Positions 5,943-60,449 of a stretch of DNA of 64,000 bases are shown in pieces. The stretch's first letter is position 1, and each line of letters opens with the position of its first letter. Source of the stretch: Ruminococcus champanellensis 18P13 = JCM 17042 (GTDB lineage Bacteria; Bacillota; Clostridia; Oscillospirales; Ruminococcaceae); the NCBI RefSeq assembly GCF_000210095.1, contig NC_021039.1, forward strand, positions 404,297-468,296, in the 5' to 3' direction. Below the pieces are notes generated by a model. That model was not told where the DNA came from, searched no databases, and was given only the letters and a program-made list of their open reading frames with translations. The translations under genes were made by a program, and so were the position numbers.

Positions 5943-7269
5943 CCGTGACCACCTCTCCCACAAAATCGTAATCCAGCACCTCGTCCAGCCGGACGGTAAC
6001 GTAGTCCCCGATATGCAGCGGGGTCTCGCTGCGGATAAAGACCTTGCCGTCAATGTCCGGCGCATCCGCCGCCGTGCGTCCGAACCAGCATTCCGCCCAC
6101 CGGTCGTAGCCCTCGATGACGGCGGTGCATACCTGCCCCAGTCTGGCGTTGTTCTTTTCCTCCACGATCAGCTGCTGCTGCTCCATGAGAATGTCCGCCC
6201 GGTGCTGCCGCACATCCTCCGGCACCTGATCCGGAAATTCCGCCGCCCTGGTGCCCTCCTCCTGGGAGTAGGCAAAGCAGCCCAGCCGATCGAACCGCTG
6301 CGCCTGGATAAATTCTGCAAGCTCCGTGAACTGGGCTTCCGTTTCTCCGGGGAAGCCGGTAATCAGCGTGGTTCGCAGGGTGATATCCGGGATCATCTGC
6401 CGGATCTTGTTCAGCAGGGCTGCCAGGGTGCCTGCATCCCCCTGCCGGTTCATGCGCCGGAGAATGTCCCCGTTGCAGTGCTGGATGGGGATATCCAGAT
6501 ACTTGACCAGCTTTTCCTCCCGTGCCATGACCTCCAGCAGCTTATCAGTGATCCGCTCCGGATAGCAGTACAGCACCCGGATCCAGCGGATGCCCTGGAT
6601 CCGGCATAGCTGCTCCAGCAGCTCCGGCAGGCGGCTTTCCCCGTACAGATCCTCCCCGTACCGGGTGGTATCCTGGGCAATGACGGTCAGCTCCGTGACC
6701 CCATGCTCCGTCAGCCACCTGGCCTCCTCCAGCACATCCTCCATGGGCACGGAGCGGAAGCCGCCCCGGATCATGGGGATGGCGCAGTAGGTACAGCAGT
6801 TGTTGCAGCCCTCTGCGATTTTCAGATACGCAAAGAAGGGCAGGGTGGACAGCACCCGTCTGCCGGACATGGGCACATCCAGCTTGGAGCAGAAATGCAC
6901 CATCCGCTCGTTGGCAAGCACATGGTCGATCACGTCAATGATCTGCCCCTGATCCCCGATGCCTATTACAGCGTCCACCTCCGGGAATTCGTCCGCTGCC
7001 TCCTGCCGGTAGCGCTCTGCCAGACATCCGGTCATAATGATCTTCCGGATGGAGCCCTCCGCCTTTAGCTGGCACAGCTCCAGGATCGTGTCGATTGCTT
7101 CCTCCTTGGCGGACTGGATAAAGCCGCAGGTGTTTACCACCACCACGTCCGCATCCCCCGGCTCGGTGACCAGTTCATAGCCCCGCTGCCGGATCAGATG
7201 GAGCATACGCTCCGAATCCACCAGATTCTTGGCACAGCCAAGGGATACCATTCCCACTTTAATGGACAT
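5926..7269 (-). CDS. rimO: ribosomal protein S12 methylthiotransferase RimO
   Basis: This 447-residue radical-SAM enzyme adds a methylthio group to the conserved aspartate of ribosomal protein S12. The N-terminal UPF0004 domain carries three cluster cysteines (SLGCAKN, VNTCGFI, MTGCLAE). The radical-SAM centre has the CNNCCTYC motif (CX3CX2C), and a TRAM domain ends the protein. The ATG at 7269 is used because AAGGAGAC precedes it; an earlier in-frame start has no ribosome binding site. The SLGCAKNLVDSE motif separates RimO from the related tRNA enzyme MiaB. Confidence 0.95.
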   Translation of the reverse strand: MSIKVGMVSLGCAKNLVDSERMLHLIRQRGYELVTEPGDADVVVVNTCGFIQSAKEEAIDTILELCQLKAEGSIRKIIMTGCLAERYRQEAADEFPEVDAVIGIGDQGQIIDVIDHVLANERMVHFCSKLDVPMSGRRVLSTLPFFAYLKIAEGCNNCCTYCAIPMIRGGFRSVPMEDVLEEARWLTEHGVTELTVIAQDTTRYGEDLYGESRLPELLEQLCRIQGIRWIRVLYCYPERITDKLLEVMAREEKLVKYLDIPIQHCNGDILRRMNRQGDAGTLAALLNKIRQMIPDITLRTTLITGFPGETEAQFTELAEFIQAQRFDRLGCFAYSQEEGTRAAEFPDQVPEDVRQHRADILMEQQQLIVEEKNNARLGQVCTAVIEGYDRWAECWFGRTAADAPDIDGKVFIRSETPLHIGDYVTVRLDEVLDYDFVGEVVTDESAQ

Positions 7270-31485: not shown

Positions 31486-32649
31486 ATGTTTCAGATTCAG
31501 ACACTCAATAAAATTTCCAAGGTAGGCACCTGCCGCCTGGACGCTGCAAAGTATGCCATTGCTGACGCACCGGAGAATCCGGATGCAATCATGGTTCGTT
31601 CCGCCGCTATGCACGATATGGAATTCGGCAGCAATCTGCTTGCCATTGCCCGTGCAGGTGCCGGCGTGAACAATATTCCCGTTGACAAGTGCGCAGAGCA
31701 GGGCATTGTTGTATTCAACACGCCCGGCGCAAACGCAAACGCTGTAAAGGAGCTGGTAGTCGCAGGACTGCTGCTGTCCTCCCGGAAGATCTCCGAGGCT
31801 ATGGCTTGGGTTCCCTCCCTCAAGGAGGAGGGCGACAACGTAGGCAAGCTGGTGGAGAAAGGTAAGAGCCAGTTCGCAGGGCCGGAGATCAAGGGCAAGA
31901 CCCTGGGTATCATCGGTCTGGGCGCCATCGGCGCACTGGTTGCAAACGTTGCCATTGACCTGGGCATGAAGGTCATCGGCACAGACCCGTTCCTGTCCGT
32001 TGGGGCTGCACTCCGTCTGTCCCCGGCAGTACAGGTTGCCAAGTCTGCGGATGAGGTACTGGCTGCGGCAGATTATCTGACCCTGCACGTTCCCTGCAAT
32101 GCAGACACCAAGGGCTTTATCAACGCCGCTGCCATTGCCAAGATGAAGGACGGCGCAAGAGTGCTGAACTTCGCAAGAGGCGAGCTGGTCAACGATGCTG
32201 ACATGATCGCAGCACTGGAAGCCGGCAAGATCGCTTGCTATGTGACCGACTTCCCCAACGCCAATACCATCGGCGTAAAGAATATCATTGCGATCCCCCA
32301 CCTGGGTGCCTCCACCCCGGAGAGCGAGGACAACTGCGCTATGATGGCTGCGGATGAGCTGTCCGCATACCTGGAGCAGGGCAATATCATCAACTCCGTT
32401 AACTTCCCCAACGCAGAAATGCATGCAAACGGCACCAAGCTGTGCGTGCTGCACAAGAATGTGCCCACCATCATTGCACAGATCACTTCCGCTCTGGGCG
32501 ATGCAGGCAAGAACATTGACAACATGGTCAACGCCAGCAAGAAGGACAACGCTTACACCATGATCGACGTTGCCGGCGATGTAGCCGACAGCATTGTTGA
32601 CACCGTAAAGGCAATTGACGGTGTCATCCGTGTGCGTGTGATCGCATAA
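31486..32649 (+). CDS. serA: D-3-phosphoglycerate dehydrogenase
   Basis: The 387-residue enzyme oxidises 3-phosphoglycerate, the first step of serine synthesis. It has the D-isomer 2-hydroxyacid dehydrogenase fold with NAD-binding GIIGLGAIGALVANVA, catalytic arginine in MVRSA and NFARGELV regions, the catalytic histidine in IPHLGASTPES, and a C-terminal ACT domain (about 315-387) that may sense serine. Starts after AGGAGGG and ends before a strong terminator. Confidence 0.96.
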   Translation: MFQIQTLNKISKVGTCRLDAAKYAIADAPENPDAIMVRSAAMHDMEFGSNLLAIARAGAGVNNIPVDKCAEQGIVVFNTPGANANAVKELVVAGLLLSSRKISEAMAWVPSLKEEGDNVGKLVEKGKSQFAGPEIKGKTLGIIGLGAIGALVANVAIDLGMKVIGTDPFLSVGAALRLSPAVQVAKSADEVLAAADYLTLHVPCNADTKGFINAAAIAKMKDGARVLNFARGELVNDADMIAALEAGKIACYVTDFPNANTIGVKNIIAIPHLGASTPESEDNCAMMAADELSAYLEQGNIINSVNFPNAEMHANGTKLCVLHKNVPTIIAQITSALGDAGKNIDNMVNASKKDNAYTMIDVAGDVADSIVDTVKAIDGVIRVRVIA

Positions 32650-32716: not shown

Positions 32717-35437
32717 TTACGGATTGATCCGGACGCTCTTTCTGCCTCCCTGGGTGGATACGCTGCCGCTACGGGTGCCTACGTCAATGACGCTGGCTGC
32801 CAGCATGGTCATATCCAGCTCCGCATCCTTCAGCAGAATGGAGCCTGCCCCCTTGGGATCCCCGATGCCGGCGATTTCCGAGCCTTCACAGTTCAGGGCG
32901 ATGTTGGCACCGTCCACCACCGTGTTGATGCTGCCGTCAATGGTGCCGATGGCGGAGCAGAACCGGGCGTTGATGGCCATGCTCACGGAGGCGTCCCGGA
33001 TGTCGATACTGCCGACGCCCTTTTCCAGGGAGCCGATGCCCACGGATTTGTTGCCGGTGCCCCGGAAATCCACCCGGGCGTTGACTGCGATGTCCACGCT
33101 GCCCCGGAAGGAGCCGATGCCCACGGCACTTGCCGCATCCGCCGTCAGCGCCAGGTCACAGTCGGATACCTCTACCTGGGCGTTCCCCTCCCGGCTGCCT
33201 ACGCAGATGCCTGCGATGCCGGAGGTGATGATGCTGATCTCTCCGGACAGCAGCCGGATCCGGGAGCCGGATTCATTCAGACCGCCCCCGATGCCTACGC
33301 ACTGTTCCCCGTTGGTGTTCAGCGTTACCTTTCCCCCGGTGGCAAGGGTAATATTGCCGTAGCCGTGCTCCAGGTCATTGCCGATGCCGAAGCTGTTGGA
33401 GCGGTCTGTGTTGATGGTCAGATCCCCGTCCCCCACAATGGTGATGGAGGAGCCCTCCGGCACATAGATGCCAATATGCTCCAGCGTATTGGTACCCTCC
33501 AGCACCAGGGTCAGACTGCACATCTCTCCCAACTGGATGCAGGGACTGTCCACCCCACGCAGGTTCACATCCTGCAGGGTCAGGGTACAGTCCAGTCCGT
33601 CCTCGATCTTCAGCACCATGTTGGAGGTATGTGCCGCTTCTCCCACAATGGTCAGGCACTGCTCCCGGATGAGGATATCCGTGTAATGCTCCAGCGCCAG
33701 CCGGATCAGCTCCACGCTTTCGTCGCTTTTGGCGGTGTAGCTGCGGCTGGCAAAGGTGCGGGTCTCCAGATTGAAGCTGATGATCTCGTTCTGGACGGTT
33801 TTGGAAATCTGCCGCAGCAGCACGGGCTTGGGCCGGGAGGTGTAGAACCCCTGGATCAGATCCGCCCCCAACTGGATCACCGTCCGCAGCTCCTGCCGGG
33901 TCTCCACGCATTCCGCAATGACGGAAATGCCATTTTCGTGGGCAAAGCTGATGATATCCGACACCAGCCGCTGCTTTTTGGAGTCGTTCTCGATGCCGCT
34001 GATGAGGGCACGGTCGATCTTCACATAATCCGGCATCATCAGCAGCAGACCGGAGGTGTTGGAGTAGCCTGCCCCGTAGTCGTCAATGGCGAACTGGCAC
34101 CCCAGGGTGGTACACCGTGCCTTCAGCGTGTCCACCAGGTCGCTGTCCACATCGCTCTGCTCCGTGACCTCGATCACGATATTTTCCAGAAGCTCCCCGT
34201 AGGTGGTATGGAGCAGGTCAAAGTCCGTTTCCGTCAGCAAATGATCCGGGATCCCGTTGATGAACAGCTTCTTGTCGGAAAGCGCCTCCTGATGCTCGGT
34301 GAAGGCGTGCATGGCGTTGAACAGGGTGGCATGCTCCACCGCATACAGCCGCTTGTTCTGCTCGGCGATCCGTAGGATCTGGGTGGCGGTCAGAGGCAGA
34401 TCCCCTGCGCGCATCAAAATCTCAAAGGCAAAGATCTCACCGGTCTTGGCGCTGACGATGGGCTGAAAGTGGTAGGTAAAGGCGTTGTCGCTGACCAGCC
34501 GCCGGAACAGCTGCAATTCCCGGAACTGGGTCTTGTCCGCCTCATACCGGGCTTTGTTGAAGGCGCAGATGTCCTTCCGCTCGTTCATAGCCTCGAATAC
34601 GGAGAAGTTGGCGTGGTTGATGAGGGCGTCCAGATCATGGCTGCCGGCGGTGCGCACCGAGTACCCCAGACTGATGGTCAGGGCGTCGCTGGCATCGATT
34701 TTCAGCACCTCGCCGAAATCGTCCGTGATGACGCAGCCGGAAATGGCAGCCCGCATGCGCTGAAAGATCGTGCCTGCCTGCTCTGCGGCACTGCCCCCTA
34801 CATATACCATGAATTCCTTGTAGGAGCGCATACCGATGATGACCTGGGGGGAGGAGAAGCTCCGGAGCGCCTGGCTGATGGCGATGACGCACCGGTCATT
34901 CTGGCTGTAGCCGTACTGCTGGGCGATCTGCTCAATGCCGTGTACATGGAGGATGGCAAGATACCCTGCCCCCGGACACTCCCGCATGCACTGCTCCGTG
35001 CGGCGGATAAAGGCGCTCCGGTGGTACAGGTGGGTCAGAGGATCGTATTCCCCTGCATCCTGGTACATGGGACAGAACCCATCGTTGTAGTGGGTAATGT
35101 CCTGGACAAAGCCCATCCAGCTCTGGGCGTCCCGTTCCACAAAGCTGAGCCGCAGCTGGAGCTGCTCGCTGCCTACGTTGTACTGGTAGACCTGGTTCTG
35201 CCGCGCCACCGGGTTTCGGGTAATGTCCTGCATCACCTGGGTGAACCGGTCGTGGGAGAGAAGCCCGTTTGCATGCTCCTTCTGGATATGCAGGATCCGG
35301 AAGGTATTGTCGTCCAGGTACGCCTCCCGGGTGGTGTGGATATATAAAAATGCGCCCATATAGGGGAACAGCTTCTGGAAGATCTCCCAGTCGTGATCCG
35401 TGGGACTGGAAGCGTGCTTGGACAGGTCAAAGATCAT
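32717..35437 (-). CDS. EAL phosphodiesterase with degenerate GGDEF and C-terminal GIG-repeat beta-helix
   Basis: The 906-residue cytosolic protein has a PAS-like N-terminal region (about 15-120), a degenerate GGDEF domain (130-300; the active site reads RSYKEF at 204-209), an EAL domain (about 315-550) and a C-terminal repeat region (about 600-906). The EAL residues needed for c-di-GMP hydrolysis are present: Glu339 (FEILMR), Asn394, Glu423, Asp452-Asp453, Lys473, Glu509, Gln529. The tail has eight GIG-like turns about 28 residues apart (near 684, 715, 745, 773, 800, 829, 857, 885), as in a right-handed beta-helix. No signal peptide or membrane segment. The ATG at 35437 follows GAGGTG; the ATG at 35464 would leave a seven-base leader. 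Confidence 0.88.
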   Translation of the reverse strand: MIFDLSKHASSPTDHDWEIFQKLFPYMGAFLYIHTTREAYLDDNTFRILHIQKEHANGLLSHDRFTQVMQDITRNPVARQNQVYQYNVGSEQLQLRLSFVERDAQSWMGFVQDITHYNDGFCPMYQDAGEYDPLTHLYHRSAFIRRTEQCMRECPGAGYLAILHVHGIEQIAQQYGYSQNDRCVIAISQALRSFSSPQVIIGMRSYKEFMVYVGGSAAEQAGTIFQRMRAAISGCVITDDFGEVLKIDASDALTISLGYSVRTAGSHDLDALINHANFSVFEAMNERKDICAFNKARYEADKTQFRELQLFRRLVSDNAFTYHFQPIVSAKTGEIFAFEILMRAGDLPLTATQILRIAEQNKRLYAVEHATLFNAMHAFTEHQEALSDKKLFINGIPDHLLTETDFDLLHTTYGELLENIVIEVTEQSDVDSDLVDTLKARCTTLGCQFAIDDYGAGYSNTSGLLLMMPDYVKIDRALISGIENDSKKQRLVSDIISFAHENGISVIAECVETRQELRTVIQLGADLIQGFYTSRPKPVLLRQISKTVQNEIISFNLETRTFASRSYTAKSDESVELIRLALEHYTDILIREQCLTIVGEAAHTSNMVLKIEDGLDCTLTLQDVNLRGVDSPCIQLGEMCSLTLVLEGTNTLEHIGIYVPEGSSITIVGDGDLTINTDRSNSFGIGNDLEHGYGNITLATGGKVTLNTNGEQCVGIGGGLNESGSRIRLLSGEISIITSGIAGICVGSREGNAQVEVSDCDLALTADAASAVGIGSFRGSVDIAVNARVDFRGTGNKSVGIGSLEKGVGSIDIRDASVSMAINARFCSAIGTIDGSINTVVDGANIALNCEGSEIAGIGDPKGAGSILLKDAELDMTMLAASVIDVGTRSGSVSTQGGRKSVRINP

Positions 35438-35506: not shown

Positions 35507-35588
35507 CGTTTCCAGTTTTATCTGGCAATGGCGGAGGAATTCGGGCAAGGCGCACAATTTTCCAGCGGAATTTCATATAGTTTGTACA

Positions 35589-35617: not shown

Positions 35618-35658
35618 GGGGCAATATCAGACCCCGCAGAGAGAATGGAGTGTTGTAT

Positions 35659-36717
35659 ATGAACAAACAGAATCCCCCCTGCACCGGGGCACAGGCCGCC
35701 GCCCGGATGCACATCGGCTGGAATCTGGGGAACACCCTGGACAGCTTTGCTCCGGACAAGGGGCTGGCGGCGGAAACCGCCTGGTTCAATCCTCCCGTGA
35801 CCCGGCAGGTGCTGCAAGCCGTGGCGGATGCAGGCTTTGACGTGATCCGGATCCCGGTGACCTGGTCGGGGCATTTCGGCGCCGCCCCCGGATACAAGCT
35901 GGAGGAGGCATGGCTGGAGCGGGTGGAGCAGGTGCTCCGCTGGGCAATGGAGCTGGATGTGTATGTGATCCTTGACATGCATCACGATGGCTCCGCCATG
36001 CCCAGTCCCCATGCCTGGCTGGTGCCGGATGCCGCCCACATAGAGGGGGTACTGCCGGTGTTCACTGCCCTGTGGAAACAACTGGCGGAGCGGTTCGGCG
36101 CATACGGGGACAAGCTGATCTTTGAGGGCATGAACGAGCCCCATTGCGGCAGCGACTGGGTGGGGAATCCGGAGCGGTACCAGGCAGTAAACCGGCTGAA
36201 CGATGCCTTTGTCCGGACTGTCCGGGCATCCGGGGGGATCAACCAGACCCGGAAGCTTCTGCTGCCCACCTATGCCGCCTCTCCAAAGCAGGCAGCCATT
36301 GGCGCACTGGTGCTGCCGGAGGATCCCTACCTGCTGGCATCCGTTCACGCCTATATCCCCACGGAATTCTGTTTCCCTGCCCGGGAGGTGAACTGGGCTG
36401 CTCCCAGAATCCAGTGGGGCACGCCGGCGGATCACGCCCAGCTGACCGATCTGTTTGACCGGCTGGCAAAGCGGTTCCCGGAGCGAGGCATTCCCCTGCT
36501 GCTGGGGGAATTTGCGGCTGTCAGCAAGCCGGATGATGCCCAGCGGCTTGCCTGGGCGGAATACTACGTCCGGGAGGCTGCACGCCGTGGGATCCGGTGC
36601 CTGTGGTGGGATGATACCAGCGGCAGGGAGGAGTGCATGGGTCTGCTGGATCGGAACACCTGCCAGTGGCGGTATCCGGAGCTGGTACAGACTCTGATCC
36701 GGGCAGCGTATGCCTGA
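35659..36717 (+). CDS. intracellular glycoside hydrolase family 5
   Basis: This 352-residue TIM-barrel enzyme resembles GH5 endo-beta-glucanases. Visible markers are IGWNLGNTLDSF at the start, VIRIPVTWSGH, VILDMHHDG, the acid/base Glu160 in FEGMNEPH and the nucleophile Glu284 in LLLGEFAA, with WWDDTSGRE near the end. There is no signal peptide, dockerin or binding module, so it acts inside the cell, probably on imported oligosaccharides. The ATG at 35659 follows GGAG by eight bases. Confidence 0.92.
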   Translation: MNKQNPPCTGAQAAARMHIGWNLGNTLDSFAPDKGLAAETAWFNPPVTRQVLQAVADAGFDVIRIPVTWSGHFGAAPGYKLEEAWLERVEQVLRWAMELDVYVILDMHHDGSAMPSPHAWLVPDAAHIEGVLPVFTALWKQLAERFGAYGDKLIFEGMNEPHCGSDWVGNPERYQAVNRLNDAFVRTVRASGGINQTRKLLLPTYAASPKQAAIGALVLPEDPYLLASVHAYIPTEFCFPAREVNWAAPRIQWGTPADHAQLTDLFDRLAKRFPERGIPLLLGEFAAVSKPDDAQRLAWAEYYVREAARRGIRCLWWDDTSGREECMGLLDRNTCQWRYPELVQTLIRAAYA

Positions 36718-58742: not shown

Positions 58743-60449
58743 ATGAATACCCGTTATACACATCGTTTCTTTTTTGTTGCATATCTTGTCATGCTTGCCT
58801 GTACCCTGCTGCTGTCCGGCATCAATGCCCGGCGCACCACCGGTGAGGAAAGTCCCTACTGGGGCAGGTCTGCCCAGTCCTTTTCCCAGGGCTGGCAGGA
58901 TGAACAGGGGGATGCGGTGGATCCGGGACAGCTGAATGTGGAAAAGGATCACCCACGCTCTGAATGGTATGAGATCCATGCGGAGCTGCCCCAGGTGCTG
59001 CCGGCGGACGCAACCCTGTCCTTCCGCAGCCTGTATCTGCGGTTCACTGTCATCATAGGGGAGCATGAAATCTATTCCTACGGCATGGAGCCATCCCATG
59101 TATTCGGCAATTCCCCCGGCACTTGCTGGCACCATATTCCCCTGTCCGGTACCTATGCAGGGCAGACGCTGACCATCCGCTATGCCACTTCCTATAACGC
59201 CAGCAATGAATGCTTTGCGGATATGGAGCTTGCCGGTGGCGCCCAGCTGATCGTGGATGCGGTGCGGCAGGGTCTGCCCGGATTGATCGCCTCCGGACTG
59301 CTGCTGTTTCTGGGAGTTGTGTTCATGCTGGTGGATCTGCCTGCCAACCGGATCATGCACCGACCCAATCATGGGCTGCTGTATCTGGGGATTCTGGCGG
59401 TGGTGGTGGGGCTCTGGTCCTTCACAGAGACCCATGTGCCGGATCTGTTCGTCACCTCCCAGCAGGCGCTGAACGTGTTCTCTCTGATGCTCCTGTCTCT
59501 GACCCCCATCCCCATCGGACTGTTTCTGTTTGAATGCCTGATGATCTGGAAGGAACGTTTGTTCTATATCGGCTTTGGATTGTCGGTTCTGGAGTTTGTA
59601 GTCTGTCTCATCCTCTACATGAGCGGCGTAACGGATTATATGCGTACCCTGTTTATCACCCAGGGGCTGATCCTGTATTTCCTGATCCTGATTGTGTATA
59701 CGGTTGCCATCAACATCCGGGATCGGGAGCGCTCCCGGATGGAAAAGGGGCTGATCCTGTCCGGTATCAGCATTATGGGGGTCTGCGTAGGGGCGGATCT
59801 GATCCTCAGTAAGCTCAGCTACCACCTGGACAACGCCCGGTTCACCCGGGTGGGCATGATCCTGTTTATTCTGCTGTTCGGCGTGCTGAATATTTTACAG
59901 GCCATGACCCAGGTCAAGGAAAACAGCCAGCTGGAGCTGGTCAGTCAGCTTGCCTATAAGGACGGGCTCACCGGCATCGGCAACCGGACTGCCTTTAATG
60001 AGCGGCTTGCCGGCCTGGAAACCATGCGGCAGCAGATCGACCCGGTGAGCCTGGTGATGCTGGACGTGAACAATCTGAAAACCGCCAACGACAAGTTCGG
60101 ACACCAGCAGGGGGACATCCTCATCAAGGGCGCTTCCGGCGTCATCCACGGCGCCTTTGCCGGACTTGGCACCACTTACCGGATCGGCGGAGATGAATTT
60201 GCCGTGGTGATCTCCAGCAGCACCGGCAGGGAGGGCATCGAGTCCGCTCTGCGGATCATGCAGAAGGATACAGACCGGTTCAACGAAAACGAAATCTGCG
60301 CCGTGCCTCTGAGCATCGCCTGGGGGTATGCCTGCGCACAATCCCCGGAGGATCCCATCAGCCGGATCATGGAGGAGGCGGACGAGGCCATGTACGCCCG
60401 GAAACGGGAAATGAAGCAGAAAATGGGACAGGCACCGGTTGTCCGCTAA
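58743..60449 (+). CDS. membrane diguanylate cyclase (7TM sensor-GGDEF)
   Basis: The 568-residue protein has a signal/first membrane helix (8-26), an extracytoplasmic beta-rich sensor domain (about 30-175), a seven-helix membrane part (about 178-395) and a cytosolic GGDEF domain (about 405-568) with an intact active site GGDEF at 482-486. It should make c-di-GMP in response to an outside signal (7TMR-DISM type). The inhibitory RxxD I-site is not seen upstream of the active site. Start follows GGAGG. Confidence 0.94.
   Translation: MNTRYTHRFFFVAYLVMLACTLLLSGINARRTTGEESPYWGRSAQSFSQGWQDEQGDAVDPGQLNVEKDHPRSEWYEIHAELPQVLPADATLSFRSLYLRFTVIIGEHEIYSYGMEPSHVFGNSPGTCWHHIPLSGTYAGQTLTIRYATSYNASNECFADMELAGGAQLIVDAVRQGLPGLIASGLLLFLGVVFMLVDLPANRIMHRPNHGLLYLGILAVVVGLWSFTETHVPDLFVTSQQALNVFSLMLLSLTPIPIGLFLFECLMIWKERLFYIGFGLSVLEFVVCLILYMSGVTDYMRTLFITQGLILYFLILIVYTVAINIRDRERSRMEKGLILSGISIMGVCVGADLILSKLSYHLDNARFTRVGMILFILLFGVLNILQAMTQVKENSQLELVSQLAYKDGLTGIGNRTAFNERLAGLETMRQQIDPVSLVMLDVNNLKTANDKFGHQQGDILIKGASGVIHGAFAGLGTTYRIGGDEFAVVISSSTGREGIESALRIMQKDTDRFNENEICAVPLSIAWGYACAQSPEDPISRIMEEADEAMYARKREMKQKMGQAPVVR

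Follow-up and report, generated by a model that had tools for sequence, protein, structure and literature searches.

What would a beta-helix do at the C-terminus of a predicted c-di-GMP phosphodiesterase, and is such a fusion a genuine protein type? EAL enzymes usually end with their catalytic domain and take signals from the N-terminus. The gene at positions 32717–35437 (minus strand) of the window, by which we mean the whole 64,000-nucleotide stretch of Ruminococcus champanellensis DNA that was analyzed, encodes a protein whose chain continues far beyond the EAL domain. The original prediction, made from the sequence, was an enzyme fused to a GIG-repeat beta-helix that could act as a ligand sensor, a polymerising scaffold or a platform for glycans.

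Domain organization

Counted from an ATG, the one uninterrupted frame of the gene encodes 906 residues; the frame extends upstream as far as a TTG at position 35557. The open reading frame, the Pfam matches and the structural models describe an N-terminal domain, a degenerate GGDEF domain, an EAL domain and a beta-helix. The N-terminal domain (residues 12–116; positions 35090–35404, minus strand), which is delimited from the model and has no Pfam match, may be PAS-like, judging from the order of its predicted secondary-structure elements. Its local profile also hits relatives that have two membrane segments. By hydropathy, no 19-residue stretch of the window protein exceeds the threshold of 1.75 (maximum 1.60), which agrees with the claim that the tail comes without a signal peptide; we infer that the protein is cytosolic.

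The GGDEF domain (residues 131–286; positions 34580–35047, minus strand; Pfam E-value 1.8e-10) has lost its signature. Inspection of the motif at residues 204–209 (positions 34811–34828, minus strand) reads RSYKEF in place of the GG(D/E)EF of active diguanylate cyclases, the same replacement for which the domain had been called dead. GGDEF stands at the aligned position in none of the 35 proteins of alignment A2, which holds 34 chosen relatives; the motif is retained in L071, L072 and L083.

The EAL domain (residues 311–536; positions 33830–34507, minus strand) matches PF00563 with an E-value of 1.5e-49 and 169 bits, against a curated cut-off of 31.3, and the NCBIfam matches are confined to the GGDEF-EAL part and all lie under their curated cut-offs. 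The residues E339, N394, E423, D452, D453, K473, E509 and Q529, which we take to be the catalytic and metal-binding positions of EAL domains, are all present, as originally stated. All 35 proteins of alignment A2 have them unchanged, as do all 75 tail-bearing EAL domains of the family, and they are kept in 11 of 11 proteins with EAL and helix from two other families. The domain is predicted to hydrolyse c-di-GMP. Behind it, the models place a junction alpha-helix (residues 546–558; positions 33764–33802, minus strand), about where close tailless relatives stop, and then the start of the beta-helix with its N-terminal cap and initial coils (residues 560–653; positions 33479–33760, minus strand). 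Nine GIG-like rungs, identified from the model and divided by eye, complete the chain (residues 654–906; positions 32720–33478, minus strand).

Predicted structure of the tail

The motif [GC][IV]G matches eight times in the tail (residues 600–906), against a mean of 1.4 in shuffled sequences, and eight matches were reached once in 10,000 shuffles. From residue 654 on, the rungs measure 29, 30, 30, 28, 27, 29, 28, 28 and 24 residues, with boundaries set by eye. Eight GIG-like turns about 28 residues apart had been described; the rungs number nine, of 24–30 residues, and not eight. In the AlphaFold2 model of residues 540–906, built from 76 sequences, an alpha-helix precedes a parallel beta-helix (pLDDT 94.8, pTM 0.91), which bears out the fold proposed for the tail. 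The model of the tail ends in a strand, without a capping helix.

The whole-protein model, computed from 35 sequences, has a pLDDT of 87.2 and a pTM of 0.64; because of the latter value, the geometry of the EAL domain relative to the helix is not established by it. The block mean pLDDT of the junction around residues 540–570 is 66–79 in the tail-only model and 80–92 in the whole-protein model; as the two models used different alignments, this no more than hints at a fixed joint between EAL and helix.

Sequence searches of Pfam, NCBIfam and the PDB returned no match that names the tail (best E-values in the PDB 0.07 and 0.9), and Foldseek searches with the tail model gave none at E ≤ 0.001 (best 0.1). 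Alignment of the Foldseek candidates with VIA-align retrieved beta-helices at Z 20–21, including PfbA, AlgE4, UpaB and Cthe_2159, among the 50 matches listed. These 50 include no bactofilin chain, which has no bearing on kinship with bactofilins. The fold that the tail shares with these solved beta-helices reveals no function.

Recurrence of the fusion

A search of 297 genomes of the family with 301 residues of the window tail found homologues in 62, the own genome included. It listed 83 places, of which 80 were fetched; those left out are the own locus, a place in the same open reading frame as another (G113) and G037:C136. With the window protein counted, the EAL domain directly precedes the helix in 77 of 81 proteins. 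The other four comprise L090 and L115, which are cut by contig ends, the 159-residue fragment L089 and L116, a protein of 1816 residues with no EAL. The L089 fragment (6774–7253, minus strand) is a lone piece of helix away from any contig end. Alignment A1 omits two of the 77 tail references (L090 and L113).

An early concern was that the tail might be a separate gene joined on by a sequencing, assembly or frameshift error. This explanation is rejected and its probability is negligible, since the architecture recurs in other genera with no internal stop in any tail match of the 297-genome search, and the same fusion is found in a MAG with 91% identity over the tail.

To look beyond the family, a profile of 76 tails was run over 394 genomes of the order. 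Among the candidates scored, the full-length matches came from the own family (at least 18 genomes), and at least 24 other genomes gave partial ones. Among 391 genomes of the class, full-length matches also came from the families f67 (at least eight genomes) and f52 (at least one), and the EAL domain precedes the helix in 11 of 11 of their loci. Among 398 genomes of the phylum, the best-scored candidates yielded full-length matches from f1 and f52 only. All these counts are lower bounds, with up to five candidates scored per genome for the order and the class, four for the phylum and nine for the EAL profile described below. A search of plasmids for the tail gave no match.

Dozens of related bacteria share this fusion, which makes the EAL domain with a C-terminal beta-helix a real protein type and a recurring architecture. 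It is apparently unstudied: no description was recognised among the papers listed in searches of the open PMC literature, a body of text that lies apart from most subscription papers and all preprints.

Relatives without the helix

A first tree separated 75 tail EALs from 26 tailless EALs of five genomes by a well-supported branch. The tailless set derives from 49 EAL matches, 30 of which were made into loci; three of these carry the tail and one was dropped as too short. Of the 26 proteins, 24 stop 7–26 residues after the EAL domain; L198 and L199 have about 425 residues of other sequence there. This tree suggested that the helix was an obligatory part of this EAL, a notion that was dropped once closer relatives had been included.

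An EAL profile run over the 297 genomes disclosed at least seven near and at least 27 more distant EALs (209–266 bits) without a counterpart in the tail search. The helix is absent from all 20 proteins fetched from this set, the seven near ones (L219–L225) and 13 of the 27. L219–L225 stop 13–23 residues behind the EAL domain, near the junction alpha-helix, and keep all eight catalytic-type residues; the 13 others stop 16–45 residues behind it, and one of them has G at position 453. A binding-protein-like domain was matched by Pfam in L219 and L225, the two that were scanned, and the N-terminus of L223 is shorter.

The second tree, in which 15 of the 75 tail EALs were dropped, four of the 26 tailless ones kept, and the 20 newly fetched and 11 other-family proteins added, places L219–L225 beside L056 (support 100/99), nested within the tail EALs. 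The helix is therefore not required by this EAL. The fork between the 13 distant proteins and the tail EALs is not resolved in this tree, the tail EALs form one group in 0% of 200 bootstrap trees, and the tail label needs three changes, at least two of them via well-supported branches. We read this history as one gain of the helix, probably followed by its loss in L219–L225; the 13 distant EALs may have lost it in a second event or may have branched off before it was gained. L219–L225 are natural tailless counterparts within the same EAL subfamily.

Variation, length and conservation

The N-terminal parts are of four kinds, while the EAL-helix part persists. The window's class has the N-terminal domain and the degenerate GGDEF; a second kind places two hydrophobic segments ahead of these; a third has a periplasmic-binding-protein-like domain (PF13377 in L056, L071 and L075), with or without GGDEF; and a fourth has a segment of about 40–100 residues. 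The binding-protein-like class looks cytosolic by hydropathy, with one hydrophobic stretch near residue 55 in L071 and L083. In L056, L071 and L075, the sugar-binding-protein-like PF13377 domain precedes GGDEF/EAL apparently without an export signal.

The distance from the end of the EAL domain to the end of the helix is 353.7 ± 5.5 residues (range 317–369, n = 76). The helix match covers 284–291 residues in 70 of 76 tails, a length bounded by the model, and is followed by 9–77 residues, 31 or fewer in 56 of 76 and 67–77 in 19. Taken together, the distance, the match length and the short remainder leave no room for many extra rungs. The longer post-helix stretches of L056, L057, L060, L061, L063, L080 and L105 have similar ends (e.g. 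YVYIPAGF, VYLPKKY) and are possibly a C-terminal cap.

Mean pairwise identity in alignment A2 is 49.5% for the EAL domain, 32.3% for the helix, 22.9% for GGDEF and 20.6% for the N-terminal domain. The dN/dS values of EAL and helix are 0.085 and 0.140 against L037, and 0.15 and 0.25 against L038; by this measure the helix is under purifying selection. Its conserved positions are chiefly Gly, Ile, Val and Pro, with polar ones that include Y567, Y585, N650, S776, E851 and N905. Across the 76 tails, conservation is highest in rungs one to three (entropy 2.18–2.32 versus 2.52–2.90); within the window's class, rung eight matches them in conservation (1.77). A docking face near the EAL domain was considered and is not borne out, the coils closer to it being less conserved (2.36–2.63) than the first three rungs.

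Over the leading 150 helix residues of each of 77 tails, aromatic residues make up 4.7%, versus 4.0% in helix relatives that lack EAL. Trp is rarer in the tails (three in 11,550 residues versus 0.89% in these relatives), and the EAL domain is also poor in Trp (0.1%). The helix is rich in Cys, with 3.2% versus 0.7% in the EAL domain and 0.8% in the EAL-less relatives; window residue 760 is Cys in 75% of 76 helix relatives.

Genomic context

The tail gene is divergent from a GH5 gene (positions 35650–36717, plus strand; PF00150, E-value 1.8e-55) in which no signal peptide was seen by eye, matching the intracellular GH5 neighbor that had been described. GH5 is the divergent neighbor in the three genomes of the genus, at 76% and 52% identity in the other two, and also lies near one distant tail gene, L100, at 40% identity and in a different arrangement. 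It says little about the tail family because few of the 80 fetched loci, some of which are cut by contig ends, have it. On the other side lies a convergent gene for a serA-like 2-hydroxyacid dehydrogenase with an ACT domain (positions 31486–32649, plus strand; Pfam), and such a gene adjoins the tail gene also in L037. In seven loci from two genera (L039 and six others), a GTPase gene, presumably YchF-like, sits beside the tail gene, and an ABC-type ATPase family occurs near tail genes in six genera at scattered positions. No partner gene common to tail loci in general was found among the neighbor families of the fetched loci.

The own genome has 11 GGDEF and four EAL matches, one EAL being that with the tail. 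Another GGDEF gene lies in the window itself (positions 59952–60419, plus strand; open reading frame 58743–60449). PilZ gave no match in the genome with controls working, and MshEN gave one (C1:395189–395443), in a 585-residue frame about 9 kb before the window that is possibly a c-di-GMP-binding motor ATPase. These two results make a motor ATPase of the type IV pilus type one possible effector. A search of the genome for c-di-GMP-I riboswitches gave no matches, with the controls silent as well, and an Rfam search of the 64-kb window gave none.

Possible roles of the helix

The reading that we tentatively prefer, resting on modular logic, is a cytosolic phosphodiesterase with the beta-helix as an arm for docking or assembly on its output side. 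The N-terminal domain and the inactive GGDEF would receive and relay a signal, the EAL domain would hydrolyse c-di-GMP, and the helix, of near-fixed length, would dock the enzyme on a partner or join its copies, so that c-di-GMP might be broken down at one defined location. The helix is homologous to secreted-looking GIG helices and would have been fused behind the last alpha-helix of the EAL domain. This reading draws on the confident beta-helix model with VIA-align Z about 20, the position of the helix directly after EAL at a near-constant length behind four kinds of N-termini, the invariant catalytic-type residues and the low dN/dS of the helix. The sensor end differs between members and the EAL-helix end stays constant, which makes output more likely than input. 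Yet at least one lineage (L219–L225) can dispense with the helix, no general partner gene was found beside it in the fetched loci, conservation marks no clear docking face, and glycan-binding proteins are the best-known bearers of the fold.

A constant domain could also be a constant second sensor, one that binds a soluble sugar, a metabolite or an envelope precursor and tunes the EAL domain allosterically. The role of ligand sensor is less favoured, and we consider it rather unlikely: variation of the kind expected of an input end is seen at the N-terminus, where input domains are already present, and EAL and helix stay constant. The conserved helix positions are mostly Gly, Ile, Val and Pro, with some polar ones, and Trp is rarer than in the EAL-less relatives, although sister architectures carry sugar-binding-protein-like N-terminal domains and Cthe_2159, whose rmsd is the lowest among the 50 matches listed, is reported to bind glycans (PMC6712302). 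Scarcity of aromatics was at one time held against glycan binding, an argument withdrawn since the EAL-less relatives are similarly aromatic, a similarity that is itself consistent with a sensor. The originally proposed glycan platform is neither supported nor excluded. The helix would quite improbably be an inert stabiliser or solubiliser of the EAL domain without interactions of its own: its sequence is weakly conserved beyond structural positions and one nested lineage with all catalytic-type residues lacks it, but its length is near-constant across distant members, dN/dS is well below 1, and 24 of 26 tailless EALs of the same five genomes manage without such a tail.

Bactofilins are cytosolic beta-helices. 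They are reported to form non-polar cytosolic filaments (PMC12448750), and the helix might likewise polymerise end to end into enzyme filaments or clusters. A polymerising scaffold is compatible with the short remainder behind most helix matches and with the uncapped, strand-ended model; as the main role of the helix it is nonetheless very doubtful, for the alpha-helix and EAL domain occupy its N-terminal end, 19 of 76 tails have 67–77 extra C-terminal residues, and no bactofilin profile match was found. Only the C-terminal end looks free, so pairs are allowed more readily than filaments.

Returning to the docking or assembly arm, a wider proposal may be ventured with greater reserve. An unnamed family of cytosolic beta-helices, kin to secreted-looking ones, might define a group of c-di-GMP phosphodiesterases found in Ruminococcus-type bacteria and in some others of the same taxonomic class. 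Their rod of near-fixed length would assemble the enzyme, or place it, at a single target in the cell, with variable sensors at the opposite end. The Ruminococcus-type hosts are, to go by the genus name, relatives of gut fibre degraders. If the helix is kept across a bacterial family, it would be a novel means of controlling or localising c-di-GMP breakdown.

Comparison with known systems

Bactofilin rungs are shorter than the 24–30 residues of the window protein, and the bactofilin profile is absent from the matches of the window tail at E ≤ 10, where weak ones are mostly filtered, and from those of the 76 tails at E ≤ 0.1. Closer in sequence are the EAL-less GIG beta-helix proteins of Firmicutes (e.g. 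L116, L135 and L146), whose helices are homologues of the tail (best E-value 1.1e-19, profile A1). They show shorter matches, with several per protein in some. In all 20 partial-match loci with a local profile match, no EAL was found in the stretch with 1.5-kb flanks, in which long frames are cut; L152, L164 and L168 have no such match. At least ten of the 20 proteins start, by eye, with a signal-like hydrophobic stretch, whereas the window protein, on hydropathy, has no hydrophobic segment over the threshold.

Cthe_2159 (PF14262; 4peu) has the same parallel beta-helix fold as that predicted for the tail, with Z 20.4 and an rmsd of 2.6 Å over 219 of 250 residues. Three matches among those listed exceed it in Z, PfbA being highest at 21.4, and matches whose Z values lie within 1 of each other count as tied. 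The PF14262 profile gave no support for kinship in sequence, as no Pfam family matches the window tail at E ≤ 0.1 and one of 76 relatives matches at E 0.025. Cthe_2159 is reported to bind cellulose and polygalacturonic acid (PMC6712302); unlike it, the helix of the window protein is fused to an EAL domain and has no export signal. In its catalytic part the window protein resembles the GGDEF-EAL proteins GepA, DibA and DosP, with an EAL domain that has intact catalytic-type residues behind a GGDEF domain. It differs from the usual EAL phosphodiesterases in adding, after the EAL domain, a tail of about 365 residues that contains the predicted beta-helix.
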